A stretch of DNA of 42,101 nucleotides. Origin: a virus. A program made the position numbers and the translations under genes. Of this stretch, positions 22,673 to 22,720 are shown piece by piece; within the stretch, counting starts at the first letter, position 1; each line of letters begins with the position of its first letter. The notes beneath the pieces were generated by a model. It did not search any database. It saw only the letters and a program-made list of their open reading frames with translations, and was not told where the DNA came from. Location: the IMG/VR virus record IMGVR_UViG_3300046736_000071, positions 1 through 42,101 of that record. One strand, 5' to 3'.

Positions 22673-22720
22673 GCCTGCCTGCCTGCCTGCCTGCCTGCCT
22701 GCCTGCCTGCCTGCCTGCCT
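22673..22720. repeat. (GCCT)12 tetranucleotide microsatellite
   Basis: Twelve perfect tandem copies of GCCT; on the coding strand (AGGC)12, followed by GCAC and the ATG at 22668. The last base of the array is part of the TGA (22720-22722) that ends the better reading of the upstream gene. Each unit carries AGG, a weak Shine-Dalgarno core, so copy number may tune spacing or translation. In the other frame the array encodes Ala-Gly-Arg-Gln repeats. Such arrays are classic slipped-strand phase-variation sites in bacteria but are rare in phages. Confidence 0.95.

Follow-up and report, generated by a model that had tools for sequence, protein, structure and literature searches.

Unrelated simple sequence repeats at one site of a phage winged-helix gene family: a putative slipped-strand switch

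A family of phage genes encoding coiled-coil/winged-helix proteins shows a common pattern, in which an upstream start codon, as a rule overlapping the stop of the gene before it, is followed by a simple sequence repeat (SSR) and then by the conserved core of the protein. The repeats at this site are of different types, namely (AGGC)n in several phages, GCAGG, poly-G and CAGT, with periods of 4, 5, 1 and 4, respectively. We propose, with a probability of roughly 60%, that the array serves as the switch in a phage-borne contingency locus, giving on/off phase variation by slipped-strand frameshifting from the upstream start. SSR phase variation has been described mainly in host-adapted bacteria, and phages are usually seen as its selective force rather than its users. 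The value of the present analysis lies in the finding that different SSRs recur at the same site within one family of phage genes.

The window, the whole stretch of 42,101 nucleotides analysed here, is a virus record of the temperate-phage type, with a terminase large subunit, a tape-measure protein and a CI/S24-type repressor. The array of twelve GCCT units, which reads (AGGC)12 on the coding minus strand, is real and perfect; Tandem Repeats Finder (TRF) gives 12.0 copies, a 100% match and a score of 96, the highest among the short-period arrays of the window, in which no other array of period 4–6 exceeds three copies. In shuffled windows, matches to a 16-nt GCCT probe, allowing up to 2 mismatches, are expected at a rate of only 0.02 per window. 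The initial annotation had described twelve perfect copies ending four bases before an ATG and starting in the stop codon that closes the better frame of the preceding gene, and both descriptions are borne out by TRF and by the coordinates: the last base of the array is 22673, the ATG at 22668–22666 begins 4 nt later with an AGG 5 nt before it, and the first A of the array is the A of the TGA at 22722–22720, which ends the frame ...YKAARVALIEALR. A GTG overlaps this TGA (GTGA, 22723–22720) immediately before the array. The unit length of 4 is not a multiple of three, and each unit shifts the frame. An RNA element was rejected, since the array region folds no better than its shuffles (z +1.0) and has no match in Rfam. 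Elsewhere in the window, a 132-bp tandem repeat in two diverged copies (31303–31552) lies inside a 978-aa open reading frame (ORF). The features of the locus are listed in Table 1.

Table 1. Features of the array locus and of the early region of the window
Feature	Position	Strand	Remarks
(AGGC)12 array	22673..22720	-	frame crossing the array gives RQAG repeats
Proposed upstream start GTG	22721..22723	-	overlaps TGA stop 22722-22720; ATG in G001; putative start
GAGG, Shine-Dalgarno-like	22731..22734	-	putative; 7 nt before GTG; identical in G001 (GAGGCGCTGCG-ATG)
P0003, ORF from core ATG	22159..22668	-	in-frame match to G001 homologue limited to residues 1-106
Rest of winged-helix core, other frame (ALVTTGTTSNRRIALARAPKEAP-stop)	22272..22349	-	after 14-nt gap relative to G001 at 22350/22349
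Remnant of preceding small gene (DLSDEEYKAARVALIEALR-stop)	22720..22779	-	N-terminus missing relative to G001
ORF1 (N-terminus of CxxC protein)	22665..23003	-	joined by 197-nt gap relative to G001 at 22780/22779
370-aa early gene (phrog_10048), intact	23009..24121	-	78% identical in G001; used to find relatives
CI-like repressor (HTH + Peptidase_S24)	26687..27445	+	divergent from early operon

A 46-kb IMG/VR contig, G001, is collinear with the window over the early region. At the array position it is without an AGGC array and reads GCG-ATGA-CGCAGGGCAGGGCAGGGCAT-ATG with the pentanucleotide (GCAGG)3, and its ATG overlapping the preceding TGA reads in frame across (GCAGG)3 into the core (MTQGRAGHMTPGQNSIARAID...). 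The window equivalent of this ATG is GTG 22723, and in both genomes GAGG precedes the start codon by seven bases. With 12 units, the frame opened by the GTG is one unit off that of the core, to which it would be joined at 11 or 14 units. Two stretches present in G001 are missing from the window: 197 nt upstream, a loss by which two small genes are fused out of frame, and 14 nt in the core near position 22350, a loss that disrupts the winged helix. Relative to G001, the preceding gene and the winged-helix gene are both frame-disrupted. A side effect of the 197-nt loss is that the ORF1 frame now crosses the array, ending at a TGA that overlaps the ATG of the core (ATGA). The damage is local, because the remaining genes common to G001 and the window are mostly in a single frame over the matched length, and it may reflect either real decay or a local assembly fault. 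The downstream coding sequence is broken in the window and open in G001 and in loci L071, L144, L239, L018, L084 and L242. Off by one unit and frame-broken in its core as well, the window copy is probably inactive, a non-functional and decayed member of the family. The slipped-strand phase-variation locus put forward in the initial annotation is thus supported in silico by homologues that carry SSRs at the same place, but the window copy itself is probably broken.

The product of the window gene, P0003, has no Pfam hit, and neither it nor its homologues give a methyltransferase match above the cut-off. As a search query P0003 was unsuccessful, probably owing to its divergence and broken frame. 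A search of INPHARED for near DNA relatives gave only short RusA-like matches, apart from one unlisted record, and there were zero homologues of the winged-helix protein. The aligned proteins of the family have in common an N-terminal helix (coiled coil) bearing the motif E-ER--L-ARLAK, followed by a variable linker and, at the C-terminus, a winged helix. An AlphaFold2 model of the G001 protein has a helix at residues 4–40, a disordered stretch at 47–65 and a winged helix-turn-helix (wHTH), with a mean pLDDT of 73 and a pTM of 0.41. When compared with the PDB by Foldseek, the wHTH of the G001 homologue gave ArsR/MarR-type matches, the best being NolR (4omz, E 1.2e-3), and the L071 protein passes the MarR_2 and HTH_20 cut-offs, which that of L009 does not. 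The C-terminal wHTH is thus shared with ArsR/MarR-type proteins at the level of fold, whereas the family differs from them in its long N-terminal helix and disordered linker. From the fold we infer that the family protein may be a DNA-binding regulator.

G001/L009, L239, L240 and L242 were recruited to the family by protein similarity and not by a repeat search. L071 (identical to L075 and L092), L144, L018, L084, L047 and L010 were first found by a scan for AGGC, by which the set is biased towards having a repeat; among them, L018 was assigned by hhalign (E 4e-9), L047 by profile (E 8.6e-10) and L010 on the same architecture only. The AGGC arrays count 6.5 units in L071 and 4.75 in L084, both in frame, and 6 in L144, 8.75 in L018, 9.75 in L047 and 10.25 in L010, all out of frame. 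In G001/L009, (GCAGG)3 is in frame with the core (MTQGRAGHMTPGQ...). L239 and L240 carry a poly-G of 14 and 13, respectively, directly after ATGAAAGTC(C), with a Shine-Dalgarno (SD)-like AAGGGAG upstream, and this is the sole run of at least 8 G/C in those 7–8 kb loci. L242, a prophage in an acidobacterial genome (portal, terminase-like and ParB-methyltransferase genes), has (CAGT)9 between the ATG and the core. The bacterial homologue L245 has no SSR and opens directly with the homologous Met, preceded by an ordinary SD-like sequence. Another winged-helix homologue, L246 (G496), has a poly-G10 in its linker, which is open in frame.

In the mechanism that we favor, translation would begin at GTG 22723 (ATG in the relatives), just before the simple repeat. 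DNA slippage would add or remove units, and any change other than a multiple of three would shift the frame that reaches the core. One length in three would give the full protein with an N-terminal tail of RQAG repeats, and at the other lengths the full protein would be lost, save for weak initiation at the core's own ATG.

The frames of the wHTH and methyltransferase genes were taken together in 14 loci. Six of them (G001, L071, L084, L055, L078 and L121) have the upstream start and the core in one frame, and in the other eight (window, L144, L239/L240, L018, L242, L010, L047 and L049) the upstream frame is one base too long, so that the third phase (phase 2) occurs in 0/14. By our estimate, 3 × (2/3)^14, an empty phase class would arise by chance at about 1% if the phases were equal. 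Free slippage does not predict the absence of phase 2, in which the upstream frame would commonly terminate at the TGA contained in the ATGA of the core. All 12 loci tested have an upstream RTG followed by an open frame at most 12 nt before the SSR, compared with 23% at random positions, although the loci are in part non-independent, and L121, with its nearest such start at a distance of 24 nt, was left out. Repeat number differs between homologues, but no length variation was seen among near-identical contigs: the repeat number is 6.5 in each of three contigs that are identical across 4.4 kb or more, repeat numbers in the L122 group are equal too, and the total tract length is equal in L239 and L240.

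Frame switching is preferred since it explains the use of unrelated repeats and the absence of period three. Against it stand the conserved Met of the core, 0–11 nt after the SSR, by which the upstream start may be dispensable, the absence of phase 2, the SSR-less L245, the broken core of the window and the equal lengths in near-identical contigs. One alternative, which we consider improbable, is a tunable ribosome-binding site, in which the number of units sets the count of SD-like AGG motifs and the distance from the stop codon to the core ATG, thereby grading expression. It fits with an in-frame core start lying close after the SSR (−1 to +11 nt in the loci examined; 10.7% for a random frame), with the AGG that can precede this start, as it does ATG 22668, and with the coding strand reading the arrays as AGGC. 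However, L242 has ATTTTTTGCCC-ATG after its (CAGT)9 and lacks an SD-like motif ahead of the core ATG, the poly-G of L239 ends 11 nt before its ATG, and in every member examined a start codon, usually with its own SD-like motif, is located ahead of the SSR. The mechanism of spacing and AGG count advanced in the initial annotation accounts for the AGGC arrays only; (CAGT)9, poly-G and the upstream starts favor a change of frame. The two models may coexist, in that initiation at the core Met could keep expression at a low basal level when a frame switch is OFF.

Long AGGC arrays are found more widely in IMG/VR, where 53 stretches have at least 8 units and 106 have at least 5, 80 of the latter having been fetched. 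In clusters of GC-rich contigs with AGGC arrays, 8/23 have the array at an ORF start in the AGGC orientation and 2/23 in the reverse one, compared with 2/38 in either orientation for the composition-matched control CGGA. An artefact of composition was rejected, as CGGA gave 76 stretches of at least 5 copies, few of them long and with no bias for gene start or orientation. Early lists of arrays near an ATG were excluded from the evidence, for they held likely non-phage, low-complexity contigs. It is likewise improbable, in our judgment, that the array is a neutral microsatellite grown by slippage from GC-rich SD and start sequence with no selected role in switching. The constancy among near-identical contigs, the broken frame of the window gene and the occurrence of at least 8 AGGC units also in apparently non-coding or low-complexity contigs are all consistent with neutral growth. 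It is opposed by the four different units at one position of the family, none of them a multiple of 3, by the bias for coding orientation and gene start, and by the concentration of the arrays in wHTH and methyltransferase genes. An assembly artefact, i.e. a collapsed or extended repeat with spurious indels in a metagenomic contig, is hardly credible, for although the 197- and 14-nt gaps relative to G001 flank the array as a troubled assembly would give, the other genes shared with G001 are mostly single-frame and similar arrays sit at the same site in independent contigs.

Besides the wHTH family, the targets of the AGGC arrays are DNA methyltransferases. L055 and L049 have an N6_N4_Mtase match, and L078, L121 and the L122 group are methyltransferases by sequence resemblance. 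The arrays of L055 (437–471, 8.75 units) and L078 (665–687, 5.75 units) are at the starts of homologous phage methyltransferase genes, both in frame and exactly three units apart, and that of L121 (7.75 units) is in frame as well. In L049 (8235–8276), 10.5 AGGC units lie between the end of a C5-cytosine-methyltransferase-like gene and an N6/N4 methyltransferase gene. Type III mod-like genes (L100 and L103) of two Acidobacteriota genomes contain (AGGC)20 (G199:C1:322812) and (AGGC)25.5 (G357:C11:9076), and are candidate phasevarions in soil bacteria. Another array of 7 units is present in G357 at C8:41726. A general excess of such arrays in Acidobacteriota was rejected, with (AGGC)6 in 2/396 genomes and (AGGC)5 in 0/192 genomes of one class.

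Several known systems resemble these loci. In H. influenzae, tetranucleotide SSRs are located at or just downstream of the start codon (PMC2651432), and the contingency loci concerned share with the present family a perfect tetranucleotide array at the start, an N-terminal tetrapeptide repeat and a frame shifted by changes of unit number; they typically target surface structures, whereas the switching proposed here, from sequence, is that of a small coiled-coil/winged-helix protein of phages and prophages. The mod genes of type III DNA methyltransferases (phasevarions) are a classical setting of SSR phase variation (PMC2667262), to which the Acidobacteriota mod-like arrays and the phage methyltransferases L055, L078, L121 and L049, with AGGC at the start, can be likened; the window gene differs in being no methyltransferase. 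The poly-G of L239 and L240 after the start codon (G14 and G13) resembles the poly-G/poly-C contingency loci of Campylobacter and Neisseria (PMC8355987, PMC5320596), but here the tract is phage-borne, and a single family holds homopolymer, tetra- and pentanucleotide SSRs.

The initial annotation knew of few phage cases of such arrays; several exist in IMG/VR, and phage-borne SSR phase variation is not described in the open-access full text searched. On balance, the unrelated repeats at one wHTH site and the arrays in methyltransferase genes tilt slightly in favor of phages of soil bacteria, probably including those of Acidobacteriota, carrying slipped-strand contingency loci of their own. If so, a regulator or a methylation pattern would vary stochastically between ON and OFF among the phages of one infecting or lysogenic population, and the occurrence of different hypermutable repeats at the same position of a conserved phage gene family would imply bet-hedging by phages on their own regulators and methyltransferases, with the device known from bacteria. 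The loci gathered here also form a list on which existing long reads could directly measure switching.

Other tetranucleotides may serve the same role, as in L279 (virus record G571), where (ACGG)9 at 1110–1145 comes just after an ATG in a small CxxC-rich gene, and this gene immediately precedes another winged-helix gene.
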